A stretch of DNA of 64,000 nt from Burkholderia sp. BCC0506 (GTDB taxonomy: Bacteria; Pseudomonadota; Gammaproteobacteria; Burkholderiales; Burkholderiaceae), in contig NZ_CADFEN010000004.1 of the NCBI RefSeq assembly GCF_902833145.1, positions 528,778 through 592,777 of the forward strand, given 5' to 3'. The translations under genes and the position numbers were made by a program. Below are positions 54,453 to 64,000 of the stretch, in pieces (the first letter of the stretch is position 1; each line of letters starts with the position of its first letter). The notes under the pieces are model-generated. The model had not been told where the DNA came from, did no database searches, and was given only the letters and a program-made list of their open reading frames with translations.

Positions 54453-55967
54453 TCAGGCCTTCATCGTCCCGGTCCGCACGTAGCGCTCGTGCCACGACAG
54501 CGCCTCGGCGAGCAGATGCGGGGTGTGCTTGCCGAAACTCTCGCGCGACGCGCGCTCGAAGTAGTCCTCGAGCATCGGGCGGTAGTCCGGGTGCGCGCAG
54601 GTCGCGATGATCTTGCGCGCGCGCTGCTTCGGCGACAGGCCGCGCAGGTCGGCCAGCCCCTGCTCGGTGACGACGACCGCGACGTCGTGCTCGGTATGGT
54701 CGACATGGCTCGCCATCGGCACGATCCGCGAGATCGCCCCGCCCTTCGCGGTACTCGCCGACATGAAGCACGACAGGTAGCCGTTGCGCGCGAAGTCGCC
54801 CGAGCCGCCGATGCCGTTCTGGATCTTCGTGCCCATCACGTGCGTCGAGTTCACGTTGCCGTAGATGTCGGCCTCGATCATCCCGTTCATCGCGATGCAG
54901 CCGAGGCGGCGCACGAGCTCCGGATGGTTGCTGATCTCCTGCGGGCGCAGCACGATCTTCTCGCGGAACGTCGCGATTTCGTCGGCGAAACGCTGCACGG
55001 CGGCCGGGCTCAGCGACAGCGCGGTGGCCGACGCGAAGCTCAGCGTGCCGTCGTCGAGCAGGTCGAGCATGCCGTCCTGGATCACCTCGGTGTAGGCCGT
55101 CAGGTTCGAGAAGCCGGCCGAGCTCAGCTCAGCCAGCACCGCGTTCGTGATGTTGCCCACGCCCGACTGCAGCGGCAGCAGGTTTTCCGGCAGGCGGCCG
55201 CGCTTCACTTCGTGGCGCAGGAAGTCGATCAGTTGCAGCGCGATCTGCTTGGAGGTCGCGTCCGGCGCGGTGAATGCGTTGCTGCGATCGGGCGCATCGG
55301 TCTCGACGATCGCGACGATCTTGTCGGCCGGGCAGCGCAGGTACGGCTCGCCGATCCGGTCGTCGCTCTTCGTCAGCGGAATCGGCTTGCGGTGCGGCGG
55401 CAGCGCGGTGCCGTAGTAGATGTCGTGCATCCCGTCGAGGCCGAGCGGCTGGCGCGCATTCACTTCGAGGATCACGTGCTTCGCGCGCTCGAGCCAGGTC
55501 TTGTTGTTGCCGATCGACGCGGACGGGATCAGCAGCCCGTCCTCGCGGATGCCCGCGACTTCGACGATCGCGACGTCGAGATCGCCGTACAGCCCGAACC
55601 ACGCGTATTGCGCGACGTGGCTCAGGTGGACGTCCTGGTAATCGACTTCGCCGCCGTTGATCTTGTCGCGCAACGTCGGGTCGGACTGGTACGGCAGCCG
55701 CATCGAGATGCCGTCGGTGCGGGCGAGCGCGCCGTCGAGTTCCGGCGCGGTCGACGCGCCCGTCAGCACGTTGATCCGGAAGTCCTCGCCGCGCGAATGG
55801 GCCGCGTCGATGTGGGCGGCAAGCGCGGCCGGCACGGCCTTCGGATAGCCCGACCCGGTGAAGCCGCTCATGGCGACGGTCATGCCGGGGCGGATCAGCG
55901 CGGCGGCTTCGTCGGCGGTGCGGACGAGCGAACGCAGGGCGGGAGCGAGGATGCGTGAAGAAGACAT
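54453..55967 (-). CDS. Acetyl-CoA hydrolase / succinyl-CoA:acetate CoA-transferase
   Basis: This 504-residue class I CoA-transferase-family enzyme has catalytic Glu294 in AYTEVIQDGMLDLLDDG, the same number as in Acetobacter AarC. The CoA-binding glycine-rich loops are in GFTGSGYPKAVP and NGIGGSGDFARNGYLS. It exchanges CoA between succinyl-CoA and acetate (or hydrolyses acetyl-CoA), acting in acetate or propionate metabolism. It stands alone, with long intergenic DNA upstream. Confidence 0.92.
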   Translation of the reverse strand: MSSSRILAPALRSLVRTADEAAALIRPGMTVAMSGFTGSGYPKAVPAALAAHIDAAHSRGEDFRINVLTGASTAPELDGALARTDGISMRLPYQSDPTLRDKINGGEVDYQDVHLSHVAQYAWFGLYGDLDVAIVEVAGIREDGLLIPSASIGNNKTWLERAKHVILEVNARQPLGLDGMHDIYYGTALPPHRKPIPLTKSDDRIGEPYLRCPADKIVAIVETDAPDRSNAFTAPDATSKQIALQLIDFLRHEVKRGRLPENLLPLQSGVGNITNAVLAELSSAGFSNLTAYTEVIQDGMLDLLDDGTLSFASATALSLSPAAVQRFADEIATFREKIVLRPQEISNHPELVRRLGCIAMNGMIEADIYGNVNSTHVMGTKIQNGIGGSGDFARNGYLSCFMSASTAKGGAISRIVPMASHVDHTEHDVAVVVTEQGLADLRGLSPKQRARKIIATCAHPDYRPMLEDYFERASRESFGKHTPHLLAEALSWHERYVRTGTMKA

Positions 55968-56620
55968 GGCTGGTTATCTGACGCTTTGGTCTGTCGTTGA
56001 CGTCGCGGGGGGTGTCTCCTGAGCGACGCGAAGCCCTTGGGGCCGCGAGGGGCGGCCCGGCACCACAGGCACGGTCGGAGTATCGCAGAGGCCATCGCCG
56101 CGAAATGTCCGCTGGATGCAAAAGATCCTTGCCGGATTTGCCGGGTATCGAACGACCGTTCTGTGACAGGCGATCCGCCCGCGCCGCCTCCATGCGAAAG
56201 GTATGCGAAAGCATCGGGCGACTCGCCGGTTCGCGTTCGCCGAGCGTCGCGCATCAATTGACCGATGTCCGTCGGCATTGACGACCCTGGTTCGGCAATC
56301 GCCGATACCCGTCCGGCGCGGCCGATTGTCACCCGATGCGGCTTTTTCACCCCTGACGGAGATCAAGGTCGCATGCGCTGCGCGACGCCGGCCGACCGGC
56401 GCGAAAAAACCTGCCGCACCGGCCGGCGAGGCCCGTCCGGCCTTGACAGCCGCGCGATGCGGACCACACTGGAAGACGGGTCCGCCGGCACGGTCGGCCG
56501 GCCCGTTCGCACGTGTGTTTTTGGACAGGCCAATGCCTGCAAGACGCCGTAACACTCCCGCATGTCAGGACATTGATCGAATAAAAAGCAACAAATTACA
56601 ATTCCGTATATATTTCGCCG
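55968..56620. other. Gene-free interval upstream of the phosphonate operon
   Basis: Of the 653 bp here, none shows a convincing protein gene; open frames on both strands have biased, unstructured translations. A TTGACA hexamer at 56443-56448 lacks a matching -10. The last 60 bp are strikingly AT-rich for this genome and hold the likely operon promoter. No tRNA, inverted repeat of an insertion sequence or known RNA fold was seen. Confidence 0.4.
56573..56602 (+). promoter_or_regulatory. Probable sigma-70 promoter of the phosphonate operon
   Basis: TTGATC (56573-56578) and TACAAT (56597-56602) are separated by 18 bp in an AT-rich patch. Transcription would start near 56609, only about 12 nt before the first ATG, leaving no room for a normal ribosome-binding site. 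Another promoter further upstream is also possible. Confidence 0.5.
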
Positions 56621-57316
56621 ATGGACCAAAGAAAAACCGCCACACGCCCTGAACCGCCCCTGCCACGCACCTGGGATGCGCGGCTCGCGCGCTCGCTTGT
56701 CCGACCGCTCGTCGATACGCCGGTCACCCCGAATCACCTCACCACCCTTCGTCTGCTGATCGGCCTCGCCGGCGCCTGGTGCCTCGCGCACGGCGGCTTC
56801 GGCTGGAGCAATGCAGGCGCGTTCCTGATCGTGCTGTCGAACTTCGTCGACCACACCGACGGCGAGCTCGCACGCATCAGCGGCAAGTCCAGCAAGATCG
56901 GTCATTTTTACGACCTGGCGGCCGATGCGCTGGTCACGGTCGCGCTGTTCGTCAGCATGGGCGTCGGCATCGTCGCGCAGGGCGGCCAGATGGCCGCGTC
57001 GCCGGTGCTGCTCGGCGCGGTGGCCGGCGCGGCCGTCGCACTGATTTTCTTCCTGCGCATGCGGATCGAATCGATCGCCGGCAAGGCCGGCACCAAGCAG
57101 GCGTTCGCCGGCGGCTTCGAGACGGAAGACGTGCTGTACCTGCTGCCGATCGTGACGCTCGTGGACGGCGTCGAGCCGTTCCTGCTCGCGGCGTCGATCG
57201 GCGCCCCGCTGTTCGCCGCCTGGGTCGTGATCGACTGGTGGCGCATCGTGCGGCGCGGCAACCTCCCGCAGACTCCGGCCGCGCAGAACCCAACCGAAAT
57301 CCAGGCTTCCAAATGA
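56621..57316 (+). CDS. CDP-alcohol phosphatidyltransferase
   Basis: This 231-residue membrane enzyme has the full CDP-alcohol motif, D-x2-DG-x2-AR-x8-G-x3-D-x3-D, with Asp77, Asp80, Gly81, Ala84, Arg85, Gly94, Asp98 and Asp102. About six TM segments flank it (LTTLRLLIGLAGAWCLAHGG, VLLGAVAGAAVALIFFL). Such enzymes move a phospho-alcohol from a CDP or CMP donor to an alcohol acceptor. In this operon the donor could be CMP-aminoethylphosphonate, giving a phosphonolipid. Its stop overlaps the next ATG. No clear Shine-Dalgarno precedes ATG 56621. Confidence 0.87.
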   Translation: MDQRKTATRPEPPLPRTWDARLARSLVRPLVDTPVTPNHLTTLRLLIGLAGAWCLAHGGFGWSNAGAFLIVLSNFVDHTDGELARISGKSSKIGHFYDLAADALVTVALFVSMGVGIVAQGGQMAASPVLLGAVAGAAVALIFFLRMRIESIAGKAGTKQAFAGGFETEDVLYLLPIVTLVDGVEPFLLAASIGAPLFAAWVVIDWWRIVRRGNLPQTPAAQNPTEIQASK

Positions 57317-58122
57317 CTCCTAGCACGCGCGACGATTCCGTGCTGAGCCCGGCACGCCCCGCGCCCGTGCGCGCGACGGCGGCCGATCCCGATCGCACCG
57401 TGGCCGACTGCGTCGGCCGGCTCGACCTCGACCGCCTGCGCGGCGACTACACGCGCCAGGGCTCGTTCCTCTACCTCGACGCCTTCCTGCCGCCCGACGC
57501 GCACGCGAAGCTGGCGGCCGCCGCCCGCGCGATGCAGGCCGGCCTGAACCGCAATTACCTGCCCGGCCACAAGCAGGGCGGCAGCGTGAGCCGCCATACG
57601 ATCGACGAGCAGGCGCCGTACATCGCCGAGCTGTACCGGTCGAAGGCGCTGATCGGTTTCCTCGAGAAAATCACCGGCGACAAGCTGATGCTGTCGCCGG
57701 ACGACGATCCGCACGCGTACGCGCTGTATTACTACACGAAGCCCGGCGACCACATCGGCTGGCACTACGACACGTCGTACTACGACGGCCGGCGCTACAC
57801 GCTGCTGATCGGCGTGATCGACGAATCGTCGTGCCGGCTCGACTACGAGCTGCATACGCGCAACCCGGACGTACCCGACGAACCGGGCTCCGTGCAGATC
57901 GCCGACGGCGGCATCGTGCTGTTCGACGGCGACAAGCTGCGCCATCGCATCACGCCGCTCGGCCAGAACGAGATGCGCGTGTCGCTCACGTTCGAATACG
58001 TGACGAACCCCGGCATGCGGCCGTGGAAGCGTTTCATCTCGAACATGAAGGATGCGATCGCGTATTTCGGTTTCCGCCAGGTGTTCAAGCAACTGGCCAC
58101 GCGGCGCACGACCGGGTCATGA
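57313..58122 (+). CDS. Fe(II)/2-oxoglutarate-dependent oxygenase
   Basis: This 269-residue double-stranded beta-helix oxygenase has the HxD...H metal triad His151-Asp153 (GWHYDTSYYDG) and His211 (LRHRITPLG), with Arg222 positioned to bind 2-oxoglutarate. It is of the prolyl-hydroxylase-like 2OG-FeII_Oxy group and is not closely similar to PhnY. It overlaps genes on both sides at ATGA, so it is an integral part of the operon. A likely job is hydroxylation of the phosphonate head group or of the lipid carrying it; this is inference from context. Confidence 0.82.
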   Translation: MTPSTRDDSVLSPARPAPVRATAADPDRTVADCVGRLDLDRLRGDYTRQGSFLYLDAFLPPDAHAKLAAAARAMQAGLNRNYLPGHKQGGSVSRHTIDEQAPYIAELYRSKALIGFLEKITGDKLMLSPDDDPHAYALYYYTKPGDHIGWHYDTSYYDGRRYTLLIGVIDESSCRLDYELHTRNPDVPDEPGSVQIADGGIVLFDGDKLRHRITPLGQNEMRVSLTFEYVTNPGMRPWKRFISNMKDAIAYFGFRQVFKQLATRRTTGS

Positions 58123-59120
58123 CACGCGCGGGCCTCATCCTGCTGTCCCTCGGGACCGCCCTCTTCATCGCCCTGCTGGCCTGGCAGGGCGTCGGCGCGG
58201 TCGCGTCCACATTCCTCGCGGCCGGCTGGGGACTCGCGCTCGTCGCGGCGTTCCACGTCGTACCGCTCGTGATCGACGCGGTCGCGATCTCCGTGATGTT
58301 CCGCCGCGGGCAGCCGGGCGCCGAACTCGGCAACGCGCTGCGCGCGCGCTGGGTCGGCGAATCGGTGAACAGCCTGCTGCCCGCCGGGCAGATCGGCGGC
58401 CCGGTGCTGATGGTGCGCCACCTCGCGCAGCGCGGCACGCGGATGGCCGACGCGGCCGCCGTCGTGACCGTCAGCACGACGATGCAGGCGCTCGCGCAGA
58501 TGGCCTTCGCGCTGATCGGCATCGCCGCGTTCAGCCTGTATGCCACGCACGAGTCGGTCGTGCACCTGCGTACGCCCGCGCTGATCGCCACCGGCGTGCT
58601 CGGCGCGCTCGCGGTGATGTTCTATCTGGCGCAGCGGCGCGGGCTGTTCGGCCGCGGGATGCGCCTCGCGTCGAAGCTGCTCGGCCCGCGCGACTGGTCG
58701 TCGCTGGCCACGCGCGCCGACGCGATCGACGACGCGGTCGGCGCGCTGTACCGCGATCGCGCGAAAGTCGCGAAGACCTTCGCATTGAGTCTCGCCGGCT
58801 GGATCGTCGGCACCGCGGAAGTGTGGCTCGCGCTGCACTTCCTCGGGCATCCGGTGAGCTGGGTCGACGCGCTGCTGCTGGAAAGCGTCGGCCAGGCGAT
58901 TCGCGGGGCGGCCTTCGCGATCCCGGGCTCGCTCGGTGCGCAGGAAGGCGGCTACCTGCTGCTCGCGCCGCTGGTCGGCTTGCCGCCCGACGCGGCGCTC
59001 GCGCTGTCGCTCGCGAAGCGCGCGCGCGAACTCGCGCTCGGCCTGCCCGGCCTGCTCTATCTGCATTTCAGTGAAAGAAACTGGCAGCGGCGCCGCGCGC
59101 CGCAGCCGCTCGCCGACTGA
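58119..59120 (+). CDS. HpnL/LPG-synthase-like membrane protein (flippase-type domain)
   Basis: This 333-residue polytopic protein has about eight TM segments. It carries the conserved WVGESVNSLLPAGQIGGPVL motif and the C-terminal FAIPGSLGAQEGGYLLLAPL, both typical of HpnL-type proteins and of the membrane (flippase) domain of lysyl-phosphatidylglycerol synthases. No catalytic aminoacyl-transferase domain is attached. It may translocate or bind the modified lipid. Start overlaps the oxygenase stop (ATGA); a 35-bp gap follows. Confidence 0.85.
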   Translation: MTRAGLILLSLGTALFIALLAWQGVGAVASTFLAAGWGLALVAAFHVVPLVIDAVAISVMFRRGQPGAELGNALRARWVGESVNSLLPAGQIGGPVLMVRHLAQRGTRMADAAAVVTVSTTMQALAQMAFALIGIAAFSLYATHESVVHLRTPALIATGVLGALAVMFYLAQRRGLFGRGMRLASKLLGPRDWSSLATRADAIDDAVGALYRDRAKVAKTFALSLAGWIVGTAEVWLALHFLGHPVSWVDALLLESVGQAIRGAAFAIPGSLGAQEGGYLLLAPLVGLPPDAALALSLAKRARELALGLPGLLYLHFSERNWQRRRAPQPLAD

Positions 59121-59155
59121 TCGTTCAGATCGCCGGCTTTTTGGTTGGAGAACCC

Positions 59156-59923
59156 ATGCGAGCCATCATTCTTGCGGCAGGCCTCGGCTTGCGCCTGCAA
59201 CAACCGCCCGAGGCGCAGTTCCCGAAGTGCCTGCTGCGCTTCGACGACGTGTCGCTGCTCGAGCGCCATCTGCGCGTGCTCGACGCCGCGGGCGTCGATG
59301 AAATCGTGCTCGGGCTCGGCTTCCAGCACGAGAAGGTCGAACAGGAACTGAAGCGCCTCGGCCGTACCGCCGAGATCGTGATCAACGACCGCTACGACCT
59401 CGGCAGCGTGCTGACCGTGCATACCGTCGCCGATGCGATGACGCGCGGCGGCGACGTGCTGCTGATGGACGCGGACGTGCTGTACGACGAGAACATCCTG
59501 CACGCGCTGGTCGCCGATGCCGACAAGGCCGTCGACCGCCTGCTGATCGACCGCGACTTCGAGGCGGGCGACGAGCCCGTCAAGCTGTGCCTGAAGAACG
59601 GCGTGCCGGTCGAGCTGCGCAAACAGCTCGCCGTCGACCTCGACTACGACACGATCGGCGAATCCGTCGGCTTCTTCCGCTTCACCGAAAGCACCGCGCG
59701 CCGCCTCGCGACGATCGTCGCGGGTTACGTCGACAGCGGCCGCGCGAACATGCCGCACGAGGAAGCCGTGCGCGACCTGCTGCTCGAAGGCGGCCATTCG
59801 TTCGACGTCGCCGACGTCACCGGCTCGCCGTGGATCGAGATCGACTTCCCGAACGACGTCGCCCGCGCGACGCAAGACATCCTTCCCCTGATTCAACGCA
59901 CCACCGCAGGAGCCGCACGATGA
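59156..59923 (+). CDS. Sugar-nucleotidyl/cytidylyltransferase-family protein
   Basis: This 255-residue nucleotidyltransferase has the intact signature [13 protein letters not shown] with Arg13 and FPKCLLRF with Lys24, then [10 protein letters not shown], where Asp binds metal. The C-terminal [16 protein letters not shown] resembles LicC and inositol-phosphate cytidylyltransferases. It is the best candidate in the operon for activating aminoethylphosphonate with CTP (a PntC-type step), supplying the CDP-alcohol transferase. GGAG precedes ATG 59156 and the stop overlaps the PEP mutase start. Confidence 0.85.
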
Positions 59924-61608
59924 ATGCACGCGAACCCAACTTCTCCGAATCGCGCAGCGCGCGCCTGCGCCGCATGCTCGTCAGCAGCGACCTCGAATTC
60001 CTGATGGAAGCGCACAACGGCCTGTCCGCACGGATCGTCCGCGAGGCCGGCTTCAAGGGGATCTGGGCGTCGGGCCTCGCGATCTCCGCGCAGTTCGGCG
60101 TGCGCGACAACAACGAAGCGAGCTGGACGCAGGTCGTCGACGTGCTCGAATTCATGGCCGACGCGAGCGACCTGCCGATCCTGCTCGACGGCGACACCGG
60201 CTACGGCAACTTCAACAACGTGCGCCGCCTCGTGAAGAAGCTCGAACAGCGCGGTATCGCGGGCGTGTGCATCGAGGACAAGCAGTTCCCGAAGACCAAC
60301 AGCTTCATCGACGGCGAACGCCAGCCGCTCGCCGAGATCGACGAGTTCTGCGGCAAGATCAAGGCCGGCAAGGATTCGCAGAGCGATCCCGACTTCTCGA
60401 TCGTCGCGCGCGTCGAGGCGCTGATCGCCGGCTGGGGGATGGACGAGGCGCTGCGCCGCGCGAACGCGTATGCGGAAGCCGGCGCCGATGCGATCCTGAT
60501 CCACAGCAAGCTGTCGCGCCCCGACGAAATCCTGCAGTTCGCGCGCGAATGGAGCGGCAAGGCGCCGCTCGTGATCGTGCCGACCAAGTACTACAGCACG
60601 CCGACCGACGTGTTCCGCCAGGCCGGCATCAGCACCGTGATCTGGGCGAACCATCTGATCCGCGCGTCCGCATCGGCGATGCAGGCCGTCGCACGCGAGA
60701 TCCACGAGAACGAAACGCTGATCAACGTCGAGGACCGCGTCGCGTCGGTCAACGAAATCTTCCGCCTGCAGGACGCCGACGAGTACTCGGCGGCCGAGCG
60801 CATCTACCTGTCGTCGTCGTCGCGCGCGTCGAACGCGGCGGTCGTGCTCGCCGCGAGCCGCGGCAAGGGCCTCGAAGCCGTCACCGAAGACAAACCCAAG
60901 GTCATGCTGCCGGTCGCCGGCAAGCCGCTCCTGCGCTGGCTCGTCGACGGCTTCAAGAAGCAGGGCGTGAACGACATCACCGTGGTCGGCGGCTACCGCG
61001 CCGATGCGATCGACACGTCGGGCATCAAGCTCGTCGTCAACGAACGCCATGCGCAGACGGGCGAGCTCGCGTCGCTCGCCTGCGCGGCCGACCGCCTGAC
61101 CGGCGACACCGTGATCTCGTACGGCGACCTGCTGTTCCGCAGCTACATCCTGCGCGACCTCGCGGAGAGCGAGGCCGAGTTCAGCGTGGTGGTCGATTCG
61201 TCGCTGACCGAGCCGTCGAACCAGAGCGTGCGCGACTTCGCGCTGTGCTCGGCGGCGGACGACCGTGGCCTGTTCGGTCAGAAGACGTACCTGCAACGCG
61301 TGTCGAGCGACGTCGCCGCGGGCACGCCGCACGGCCGCTGGATCGGCCTGCTGAACGTGCGCGGCGCCGGGGTCGACCGCCTGAAGGCGATGCTTGCAAC
61401 GCTGCAGGCGCGCCCCGATTTCGACACGCTCGACATTCCGTCGCTGCTCAACGAACTGATCGCCGCCGGCGAGAAGATCGAGGTGCAGTACGTGCACGGC
61501 CACTGGCGCGGCGTCAACGATCTCGAAGACTTCCGCCGCGCGGGCGACTTCGCGCACGGCCAGACGCCGCTGTCCGAACCGGGTGCCGGCAACGGGGGCG
61601 CACGATGA
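59920..61608 (+). CDS. aepX: Phosphoenolpyruvate mutase fused to a nucleotidyltransferase domain
   Basis: This 562-residue fusion has PEP mutase at about 15-290, with the diagnostic [10 protein letters not shown] (119-128) and [10 protein letters not shown], the residues that distinguish phosphonate-forming mutase from other isocitrate-lyase-fold enzymes. It makes phosphonopyruvate, the entry to C-P bond synthesis. From about 306 a nucleotidyltransferase domain follows, but its signature is altered: LAASRGKGL replaces LAAG-x-G-x-R, losing the usual Gly and Arg, while [13 protein letters not shown] is intact. That domain may have changed specificity or be structural. Both ends overlap neighbouring genes. 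Confidence 0.95.
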
Positions 61609-62786
61609 TCGAAGCGGCCCAGTTCGTCGAGGCCGCGCGCGAACGCGGCTTCGACTGGTACGCGGGCGTGCCCTGCTCGTACCTGACGCCGTTCATCAAT
61701 TACGTGCTGCAGGACCCGACGCTGCACTACGTGTCGGCCGCGAACGAAGGCGACGCGGTCGCGCTGATCGCAGGCGCGACGCTCGGCGGCAAGCGCGGGA
61801 TCGCGATGATGCAGAACTCGGGGCTCGGCAACGCGGTGAGCCCGCTCACGTCGCTCACCTGGACGTTCCGCCTGCCTCAACTGCTGATCGTCACGTGGCG
61901 CGGCCAGCCGGGCGTGCCCGACGAACCGCAGCATGCGTTGATGGGCCCGATCACGCCCGCGATGCTCGACACGATGGAGATCCCGTGGGAGACGTTCCCG
62001 ACCGACCCCGACGCGGTCGGCCCGGCACTCGACCGCGCGATCGCGCACATGGACGCGACGGGCCGCCCGTACGCGCTCGTGATGCAGAAAGGCAGCGTCG
62101 CGCCGTATGAACTGAAGGCGAACCCGGCCGCGAAGCCGCGTGCGCACGTCGCCGCGCAATCGTCGTCGCGCGCAGTGCCGGCCGATGCATGGCCGACCCG
62201 TCACGACGCGCTGCAGCGCGTGATCGCGCACACGCCGGTCGATTCGACCGTCGTGCTCGCGTCGACCGGTTTCTGCGGCCGCGAACTCTACGCGCTCGAC
62301 GATCGCCCGAACCAGCTGTACATGGTCGGCTCGATGGGCTGCGTGACGCCGCTCGCGCTCGGCCTCGCGCTCGCGCGCCCCGACCTGCGCGTGGTGGCCG
62401 TCGACGGCGACGGCGCCGCGCTGATGCGCATGGGCGTGTTCGCGACGCTCGGCACCTACGGCCCGGCCAACCTCACGCACGTGCTGCTCGACAACGGCGC
62501 GCACGAGTCGACGGGCGGCCAGGCGACGGTGTCGCAGCATGTGTCGTTTGCCGGTGTCGCGGCTGCGTGCGGCTACGCGTCGGCGGTCGAAGGCGATACG
62601 CTCGACGTGCTCGATGCGACGCTGGCGGCAACGGGCAACGGCGTGCAATTCGTTCGCGTGGCGATCCGCACGGGCGTGCCCGACGGCCTGCCCCGCCCGA
62701 CCGTCACGCCGGTCGAGGTCAAGACCCGTCTGATGCGGCACATCGGCGCCGCGCAGACCGAAGCCCACGTTGAAGGAGCCCATTGA
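61605..62786 (+). CDS. aepY: Phosphonopyruvate decarboxylase
   Basis: This 393-residue ThDP enzyme converts phosphonopyruvate to phosphonoacetaldehyde, the irreversible step that drives phosphonate formation. The catalytic Glu48 lies in [13 protein letters not shown] and the ThDP/Mg motif begins with GDG at 268-270. [14 protein letters not shown] and [16 protein letters not shown] are characteristic of the Ppd family rather than sulfopyruvate decarboxylase. The start overlaps the mutase stop (ATGA). Confidence 0.95.
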
Positions 62787-63850
62787 TGCTGCTGCTGAAC
62801 CCCGGCCCGGTCACGCTCTCCGAACGCGTGCGCCGCAGCCTGCTGCAACCCGATCTGTGCCATCGCGAAAGCGAATTCTTCGACTTGCAGGATGAAGCGC
62901 GTGCGCGCCTCGTCGCCGCGTACGAACTCGATCCGGCCGAATGGGCCGCCGTGCTGATGACGGGCTCGGGCACGGCCGCCGTCGAAAGCATGATCGCGGC
63001 GCTCGTGCCGCAGGACGGCAAGCTGCTCGTGATCGAAAACGGCGTGTACGGCGAGCGGATCACGCAGATCGCCACGCAGTACGGCATCGCGCACGACGTG
63101 TTGAAGCACGAGTGGATGCAGGCGCCCGATCTCGCGCAGATCGGTGCGCGTCTTGACGCGGGCGGCTATTCGCACGTCGCGGCGATTCATCATGAAACGA
63201 CGACGGGCCGGTTGAACGATCTCGATGCGATTGCCGACGTGTGCCGTGCGCGTGGTGTGAAGATGCTTGTCGATGGTGTCAGCAGCTTCGGTGCGGAAGC
63301 GATCGATTTTGCAGGCGGCGTGATCGACGCGGTTGCCGCGACCGCGAACAAGTGCCTGCACGGCGTGCCGGGCGCGGCGTTCGTGATCGTGCGCCGCAGC
63401 GCGCTCGCGAAGGCTGCGAGCCGCACGTATTATCTCGATCTCGGGCGGCTTGCGAAGCTGCAGGATCAGCGCAATACGCCGTTTACGCCTTCCGTGCATG
63501 CGTATTACGCGCTCGTCGAGGCGTTGCGGGAGTTCGATGAGGCTGGCGGCTGGCGGGCGCGGCATGCGCACTACAAGGCGCTTGCCGATCAGGTGCAGGC
63601 GGGGCTCGCGGCGCGCGGGATGTCGCTGGTGCTGCCGGAAGGTGCATCGTCGGTCGTGCTGCGTGCGTATCGGTTGCCGCAAGGTGTGACGTACGAGACG
63701 CTGCACGACGGGCTGAAGGCGCGTGGCTTCGTGATCTACGCGGGACAAGGCGGGCTGTCGAAGGAACTGTTCCGGATCTCGACGATGGGCGCGATTCAGG
63801 CGGCCGATGTCGAGCGGTTGCTGGAGGGGTTTACGGCGTTGACGCGGTAA
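62786..63850 (+). CDS. phnW: 2-aminoethylphosphonate--pyruvate transaminase
   Basis: This 354-residue fold-type I aminotransferase has the PLP lysine Lys189 (ANKCLHGVPGAAFV) and Asp163 (LVDGVSSFGAE). LLLNPGPVTLSERVR at the N-terminus is the family signature. In degradation clusters PhnW removes the amino group from AEP; here, next to the mutase and decarboxylase and without a phosphonatase, it should run in the synthetic direction to form AEP. ATG 62786 overlaps the previous stop (TGATG) with AAGGAG upstream. It is the last gene of the operon. Confidence 0.94.
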   Translation: MLLLNPGPVTLSERVRRSLLQPDLCHRESEFFDLQDEARARLVAAYELDPAEWAAVLMTGSGTAAVESMIAALVPQDGKLLVIENGVYGERITQIATQYGIAHDVLKHEWMQAPDLAQIGARLDAGGYSHVAAIHHETTTGRLNDLDAIADVCRARGVKMLVDGVSSFGAEAIDFAGGVIDAVAATANKCLHGVPGAAFVIVRRSALAKAASRTYYLDLGRLAKLQDQRNTPFTPSVHAYYALVEALREFDEAGGWRARHAHYKALADQVQAGLAARGMSLVLPEGASSVVLRAYRLPQGVTYETLHDGLKARGFVIYAGQGGLSKELFRISTMGAIQAADVERLLEGFTALTR

Positions 63851-63874
63851 GTGTCGTCCGTAACTTCGTCCACG

Positions 63875-63897
63875 AAAGGCCCGCAAGGGCCTTTTTT
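63875..63897 (+). terminator. Rho-independent terminator of the phosphonate operon
   Basis: AAGGCCC (63876-63882) / GGGCCTT (63887-63893) with a GCAA tetraloop is followed by TTTTTT, 25 bp after the transaminase stop. Confidence 0.92.
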
Positions 63898-63902
63898 ATG
63901 GT

Positions 63903-64000
63903 TCATCGAGGATTACCGGGGAACGCGGCGCGAATCTTGAGGAAGAAGTATTCGTCGTCGCGGTACCCGTAAGCTCGACGCTTGATGACCTTGATGGTGT
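63903..64000 (-). CDS. C-terminal end of an ISL3-like transposase (partial, off the right edge)
   Basis: The minus-strand frame reads TIKVIKRRAYGYRDDEYFFL then KIRAAFPGNPR and a stop at 63903-63905. This is the conserved C-terminus of ISL3-family (IS204/IS1001/IS1165-type) DDE transposases. Only 32 residues are inside the window and no terminal inverted repeat is visible before the phosphonate terminator, so whether a complete element lies to the right is unknown. Confidence 0.75.
   Translation of the reverse strand, partial: TIKVIKRRAYGYRDDEYFFLKIRAAFPGNPR

Follow-up and report, generated by a model that had tools for sequence, protein, structure and literature searches.

What does a bacterium attach to its envelope when it makes 2-aminoethylphosphonate (AEP), and to which acceptor? 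This question is raised by a seven-gene operon at positions 56621–63850 of a 64,000-nucleotide stretch of Burkholderia sp. BCC0506 (contig NZ_CADFEN010000004.1, positions 528,778 to 592,777; hereafter the window). The original prediction, made from the sequence alone, held that AEP is activated, joined to a lipid alcohol, translocated and perhaps hydroxylated; our results fit each of these inferred steps, and the acceptor is the part that it left open. We consider it very likely that the operon makes AEP and places it on some lipid alcohol. Regarding the acceptor, we lean towards a hopanoid alcohol, with the AEP perhaps hydroxylated: comparative genomics favors a hopanoid over a glycan and speaks for it no less than for diacylglycerol.

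The last three genes encode the AEP core, as had been recognized from the sequence, and each product exceeded its TIGRFAM cut-off: phosphoenolpyruvate (PEP) mutase (P0005, 59920–61608; TIGR02320, 409.1 bits, cut-off 319.55), phosphonopyruvate decarboxylase (P0006, 61605–62786; TIGR03297, 480.6 bits, cut-off 312.5), and AEP aminotransferase (P0007, 62786–63850; TIGR03301, 399.1 bits, cut-off 360.8). The PEP mutase carries the EDKxxxxxNS motif at residue 119 of the translation from 59920, and its residues 308–424 form a second MobA-like nucleotidyltransferase domain (PF12804). This fusion had escaped notice; the cytidylyltransferase-type protein already reported is the stand-alone P0004 (59156–59923, PF12804), which is indeed PntC-like and which we propose as the synthase of AEP activated with cytidine monophosphate (CMP-AEP). 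Its best match in the Protein Data Bank was 6pd1 (Treponema PntC-AEPT, E 6.3e-12), followed by LicC (1jyk). P0004 keeps GxGxR...PK; set against the PntC consensus GxG(T/S)Rx4-8PK, found in the available text of Rice et al. 2019 (PMC6697681), PK is present, but L replaces T/S and the spacer is 9. The AEP-pocket residue E104 of Tde-PntC aligns with D110 of P0004 (D105 in LicC), and the alignment of E196 is uncertain. The GxGxR part is missing from the fused domain of P0005.

Three further genes open the operon, and their products bear out the families previously assigned to them. P0001 (56621–57316) scored 54.9 bits against CDP-OH_P_transf (cut-off 22) and shows both the D-x2-DG-x2-AR-x8-G-x3-D-x3-D motif, intact as described, and the fold of the cytidine diphosphate (CDP)-alcohol phosphotransferases; we propose it as the CMP-AEP:lipid-alcohol AEP transferase. 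P0003 (58119–59120) is an HpnL-family membrane protein (TIGR03476, 372.8 bits, cut-off 195.65) and a candidate lipid translocase. Between them lies P0002 (57313–58122), an Fe(II)/2-oxoglutarate (2OG) oxygenase proposed to hydroxylate AEP or the lipid, which exceeded the Pfam HalD cut-off (48.7 bits, cut-off 26), with 2OG-FeII_Oxy_3 below its own. The predicted structure of P0002, with a pLDDT of only 64, matches the HalD/BesD/lysine hydroxylase group. The iron facial triad of the BesD/HalD halogenases is without the carboxylate (HxG/A). P0002 has an HYD...H...R pattern that is invariant across 15 aligned sequences; since HYD is found in all 15, we rejected a halogenase reading and regard the site as hydroxylase-type. 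The scanned loci with the oxygenase were Burkholderiaceae clusters and, by a short match, one in a Nitrococcus metagenome-assembled genome (MAG); Roseomonas-type clusters showed none, so hydroxylation looks optional.

All seven genes lie on the forward strand and, as had been stated, five of the six junctions overlap (by 4, 4, 4, 4, and 1 bp), the sole gap being 35 bp. The claimed lack of phosphonatase and C-P lyase genes holds for the seven operon genes, which were all that was checked.

From this gene content, the intact motifs, and the conservation, co-occurrence and clustering described below, we infer the following reactions. PEP would be converted through phosphonopyruvate and phosphonoacetaldehyde to AEP by the mutase, decarboxylase and aminotransferase, and the PntC-like nucleotidyltransferase would join AEP with cytidine triphosphate to give CMP-AEP. 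The CDP-alcohol phosphotransferase would then transfer AEP from CMP-AEP to the hydroxyl of a C35 hopanoid, yielding AEP-hopanoid and CMP. The acceptor would most simply be the side chain of bacteriohopanetetrol (BHT); HpnH begins, and is needed for, the C35 side chain. HpnL would help the phosphonohopanoid across the inner membrane, and in Burkholderiaceae hydroxylation of the head group is the probable task of the 2OG oxygenase. By calculation, the hydroxylated AEP-hopanoid and a phosphoethanolamine hopanoid share one formula, so that the C-P bond could not be recognized from mass alone; the calculated [M+H]+ values are 654.486 for AEP-BHT and 670.481 for its hydroxy form. The most economical account would be a second hopanoid head-group pathway beside hpnIJK.

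The operon is conserved throughout the genus. Within Burkholderia, P0005 was matched (E <= 1e-40) in 64 of the 65 genomes, and full-length matches outside the window were 86–99% identical. A comparison of gene order, which had been suggested as a check, came out in favor of the prediction: beyond the locus in the window, 63 loci were fetched, and the same seven-gene order recurs in 62 (one of them, G025, in a broken form, in a fragmented assembly that holds P0005 in pieces), and the remaining one is a 3.4-kb contig with four genes. An internal stop in an aligned gene was seen in three of the 63 loci (L218, L226, and L232). Because gene order is kept across the genus, the operon is not a chance juxtaposition. 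The 7.3-kb block also matched one record each from B. cenocepacia, B. arboris, B. multivorans, and B. stagnalis in a plasmid collection, over 99–100% of its length and with 92–96% identity. The sole genome of the 65 without a PEP mutase fusion match, G016 (5.8 Mb, 99% complete), is a possible natural knockout.

To look beyond the genus, we used a sample of 150 Burkholderiaceae genomes from 25 genera and called the fusion at E <= 1e-200, which placed it in 76 genomes and 11 genera. One of the sampled genomes (G143) has a split operon, with genes for the CDP-alcohol phosphotransferase, oxygenase, HpnL and nucleotidyltransferase at C1:1203500-1207500 (L249) and the PEP mutase fusion at C2:403780. 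As the transferase set and the fusion are kept on separate contigs, the operon can be viewed as two modules. Six named Paraburkholderia loci and G083 showed PepM-PPD-AEPT alone; the notion that Paraburkholderia has only the AEP core is weakened by G143, which belongs to the same genus as G083 (g20) and has the other four genes on a separate contig.

In several relatives, the operon lies next to hopanoid genes. In Mycetohabitans rhizoxinica, the window's seven genes are followed by dxs, two hypothetical genes, an MMPL transporter gene and a binding protein gene (products labeled HpnN-like and HpnM-like, respectively), ispH, hpnH, hpnA, a glycosyltransferase (GT) gene, a hypothetical gene, shc, and hpnD. 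The AEP genes of Roseomonas marmotae, which do not include the oxygenase, are flanked on one side by hpnA-GT-hpnC-hpnD-hpnE-shc-hpnG-hpnH-ispH and on the other by genes for a polyprenyl synthetase, a dxs match, MMPL, and VacJ; gene order differs between the alpha- and betaproteobacterial clusters. Proteins of these two species served as tblastn queries for a neighborhood scan, which recovered the Mycetohabitans-type block in the fetched genomes of genera g11 and g16 (G192, G165, G158; G099, G079, G114) and hpnM- and hpnN-like genes adjoining the operon in g7 (G070) and g15 (G078, G098). Counting a fusion as near when it lay within 25 kb of squalene-hopene cyclase, and a contig break between them as not near, we found 15 near cases among the 76 fusion-bearing Burkholderiaceae, namely 10 of 11 in g11, 3 of 3 in g16, and 2 of 4 in g8 (taken as Mycetohabitans). 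The genus Burkholderia is considered below; the other seven genera gave 0 of 43.

A broader set of 80 named PEP mutase loci, kept from at least 577 confirmed relatives, gave a similar association. By our thresholds, 26 of the 80 hold relatives of both the CDP-alcohol phosphotransferase and HpnL, and at least one hpn-specific gene was present in 9 of these 26 compared with 2 of the other 54 (Fisher p 4.5e-4); requiring either relative rather than both gave 9 of 33 versus 2 of 47 (p 0.006). These values are descriptive only, given the relatedness of the loci and the frequent contig breaks close to the cluster. Eight of the nine hpn-positive loci are among the 15 alphaproteobacterial loci with both relatives, a count that includes ‘Mycobacterium sp. 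KBS0706’, and two loci (L095 and L111) were counted as positive on an hpnN match alone. The ninth, from Candidatus Udaeobacter (L163), has an hpnA match at 38% identity alone. No hpn gene was found at the eight Burkholderia and Cupriavidus loci of this set. The ‘Mycobacterium’ locus (L090) carries a Roseomonas-like AEP cluster beside hpn genes with a 74% identical fusion, and its name looks wrong or the contig misassigned. In six alphaproteobacterial loci (L097, L098, L100, L104, L108, and L111), a single PEP mutase fusion has two or three CDP-alcohol phosphotransferase relatives nearby.

The operon also co-occurs with hopanoid genes where the two are not neighbors. All 76 fusion-bearing Burkholderiaceae genomes had a cyclase match, 75 of them above the cut-off (G041 had fragments only), and the fusion was found in none of the 52 cyclase-negative genomes. 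HpnH exceeded its cut-off in all 13 fusion-bearing genomes checked, representing 11 genera. Among 115 sampled Acetobacteraceae, the fusion was present in eight; all eight had a cyclase match (seven above the cut-off, G721 having a sub-cut-off fragment), and in three genomes fusion and cyclase shared a contig, ~10–14 kb apart. For 46 of the 80 named loci, the genome was checked for the cyclase, leaving out seven Burkholderia loci that have both the CDP-alcohol phosphotransferase and HpnL. It was present in 17 of 19 genomes with both relatives at the locus, 4 of 6 with one, and 12 of 21 with neither; 17/19 versus 12/21 corresponds to a Fisher p of 0.034, again descriptive, with L134 barely above the cut-off. 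The two misses in the first group were L094, a MAG with fragments only, and L163. Agrobacterium cavarae (L096), a single case, has the AEP core and a nucleotidyltransferase; neither CDP-alcohol phosphotransferase nor HpnL relatives occur there within 21.6 kb, and there is no cyclase. The window's genome has two cyclase copies: the one at C1:170491-172422 (L248) contains one internal TAG, and the one at C8:30891 does not.

HpnL provides a further link. It exceeded the cut-off in 94 of the 150 Burkholderiaceae, all 94 with a cyclase match, and among 398 Pseudomonadota it was present (E <= 1e-20) in 31, 30 of them with the cyclase, compared with a cyclase in 20 of the 367 genomes without HpnL; this association is partly built in, because the family was named for hopanoid loci. 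Stronger evidence is that the window's genome encodes a second HpnL at C3:415926, adjoining HpnK, HpnJ and HpnI, each above its cut-off; of 16 other Burkholderiaceae copies picked and fetched, 13 likewise had HpnK and HpnJ next to HpnL. Since NCBIfam describes HpnI as a bacteriohopanetetrol glucosamine biosynthesis glycosyltransferase, this second HpnL travels with BHT head-group enzymes. The hpnI-hpnJ-hpnK-hpnL set resembles the proposed role of the operon in being concerned with a polar head on BHT, has an HpnL as well, and differs in its chemistry, sugar rather than phosphonate. The two HpnL proteins are ~32% identical and fell into separate clades of a tree built by a quick method, with long branches flagged: the hpnK-linked copies formed one clade (SH-aLRT 100), the Burkholderiaceae AEP-operon copies another (99), and the alphaproteobacterial AEP copies were scattered over several places. 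A single AEP-specific HpnL clade was therefore not supported, the AEP label needing at least two changes on the tree. The AEP-linked HpnL proteins may not share a single origin, a pattern that would fit repeated recruitment or poor resolution.

Several observations weigh against a hopanoid acceptor. The species are related, so the co-occurrence counts are not independent, and the nesting of the fusion within cyclase-bearing genomes could be explained by the cyclase-negative genomes being largely small (18 of the 20 listed, of 52 in all, are below 3 Mb). The cyclase occurs anyway in 101 of the 115 Acetobacteraceae and, as noted, in 12 of 21 genomes with other types of PEP mutase locus; Candidatus Udaeobacter has the cluster relatives and no cyclase match, and G541 has HpnL and no cyclase. 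A 2025 survey of alphaproteobacterial hopanoids (PMC12583986) treats the function of hpnL as not established and, in the text available, reports no obvious candidate genes near hpn clusters beyond hpnA, B, L, and M, which counts mildly here; nor does the string ‘phosphon’ occur in that text. No hopanoid figures in the description of any solved CDP-alcohol phosphotransferase among our structure matches. The most serious objection is the distance between operon and cyclase in Burkholderia itself, where the fusion was within 25 kb of it in 0 of 15 genomes and 0.8–2.0 Mb away in the nine with both on one contig; across the Burkholderiaceae, the cyclase was not seen within 25 kb of the operon in 61 of the 76.

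This separation speaks for an ordinary phosphonolipid, the main rival, in which CMP-AEP would pass its AEP to diacylglycerol in the style of the Kennedy pathway, giving a phosphonate analogue of phosphatidylethanolamine. As a second part of that objection, diacylglycerol would call for nothing special to account for the transferase: the fold and motif of P0001 are those of the CDP-alcohol phosphotransferases, including the choline/ethanolamine phosphotransferases, and diacylglycerol should be available in Burkholderia cells. It also matches our reading of the proposal in the accessible part of PMC5987646. Given the clustering and co-occurrence with hopanoid genes, we rate diacylglycerol as an unlikely acceptor, yet the one to be taken most seriously after a hopanoid.

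More doubtful still is that AEP decorates a glycan or lipopolysaccharide, or is passed on by a polyprenyl carrier, in line with proposals for Pnt pathways. The available text of Rice et al. 2019 (PMC6697681) assigns most of the phosphonate capacity of bacteria to cell-surface tailoring, and fused and separate nucleotidyltransferases also occur together in the oral-anaerobe clusters shown there. However, family searches recovered no glycosyltransferase or LicD-like gene among the seven, and the transferase is a membrane CDP-alcohol phosphotransferase. A free small phosphonate, made and secreted, is very improbable: a different PepM cluster does yield an antibacterial phosphonate, flavophos, in Burkholderia (PMC12871164, available part), but the near-universal presence and full-length identity of the fusion in the genus, a phosphotransferase of a lipid family, and the lack of a recognized efflux pump or resistance gene among the seven all argue otherwise.

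A hopanoid acceptor extends an existing proposal. The original prediction knew of no described pathway with this exact gene combination, yet one is in print: Fig. 7 of PMC5987646 gives the same genes (CDP-APT, OG-Fe(II), NTPT, pepM, ppd, AEPT, and hpnL, with hydroxy-AEP among its abbreviations) in a lichen Nostoc together with a homologous Burkholderia cluster, and proposes a phosphonolipid pathway adapted from Yu et al. 2013; unlike in our account, the acceptor is not tied to hopanoids in the part available. A Roseomonas ‘terpene-phosphonate’ cluster (PMC8776678, available part) likewise links a PEP mutase to squalene-hopene cyclase, with the suggestion of an undiscovered terpene-phosphonate, but covers Acetobacteraceae only and gives no mechanism, CDP-alcohol phosphotransferase, HpnL, or Burkholderia. 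In the PntC pathway (PMC6697681, available text), a MobA-like cytidylyltransferase makes CMP-AEP and is often fused or close to PEP mutase; neither ‘alcohol phosphatidyltransferase’ nor ‘hopanoid’ occurs in that text, whereas the next enzyme of our operon is a CDP-alcohol phosphotransferase with an HpnL partner. A nucleotidyltransferase paired with a CDP-alcohol phosphotransferase is also found in IPCT-DIPPS (inositol-1-phosphate cytidylyltransferase and CDP-inositol phosphotransferase), whose structure 4mnd P0001 matches; there the substrates are inositols and the protein is a single fusion, and the bifunctional family model matched P0004 and P0001 at 63.3 and 31.7 bits, far below its cut-off of 580. 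BHT cyclitol ethers are described in B. cenocepacia (PMC8560942), with no ‘phosphon’ in the available text, and we found no description of an AEP-hopanoid in the passages, titles and abstract openings seen from an open library that omits most subscription-journal papers. The operon is real, conserved and already proposed for a phosphonolipid; what is new is the hopanoid as acceptor, for which the association is well supported and the chemistry unproven.

We would give even chances to the wider proposal that phosphonohopanoids exist, with AEP (perhaps hydroxy-AEP in Burkholderiaceae) serving nearly all Burkholderia and scattered Alphaproteobacteria as a hopanoid head group; a second head-group pathway alongside hpnIJK would make it, with HpnL as the translocase family common to both. 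Hopanoids are the bacterial counterpart of cholesterol, and Burkholderia includes human and plant pathogens as well as soil species. If true, hopanoids with a phosphonate head would form a lipid class for which we found no description, conserved across the genus; HpnL would gain a job, and the Burkholderia AEP operon its missing acceptor. Because phosphonolipids cannot be cleaved by regular phospholipases (PMC5987646, available part), such lipids could matter for envelope stability, and also for hopanoids as biomarkers.

At the margins of the operon, a weak sigma-70-like promoter match (56573–56602, forward strand, 9 of 12 consensus positions) precedes P0001, the scanned region holding two such sites compared with 0.5 in shuffles. 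The terminator claimed earlier corresponds to an intrinsic-terminator-like site (63874–63895, forward strand; a stem of nine pairs and a T-run) that closes the block; the region has six such sites against a shuffle mean of 4.6 (sd 2.4), hardly above chance. A Pho-box search of the window gave three matches with three mismatches, 1.68 being expected and none convincing, and Rfam returned nothing at gathering scores over 55900–64000. The window ends with its contig (C4), in a genome of 7.29 Mb in 45 contigs. A Rhizobium leguminosarum plasmid (L041) carries another PepM cluster, with genes for aepX, an aminotransferase, a cytidylyltransferase, a CDP-alcohol phosphotransferase, and two proteins related to asparagine synthase, which looks like a phosphonate pathway of another kind. 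Upstream of the operon, ~650 bp without an assigned gene separate it from an opposite-strand gene (54453–55967) whose product, judged by eye, looks like an acetyl-CoA hydrolase or CoA transferase.

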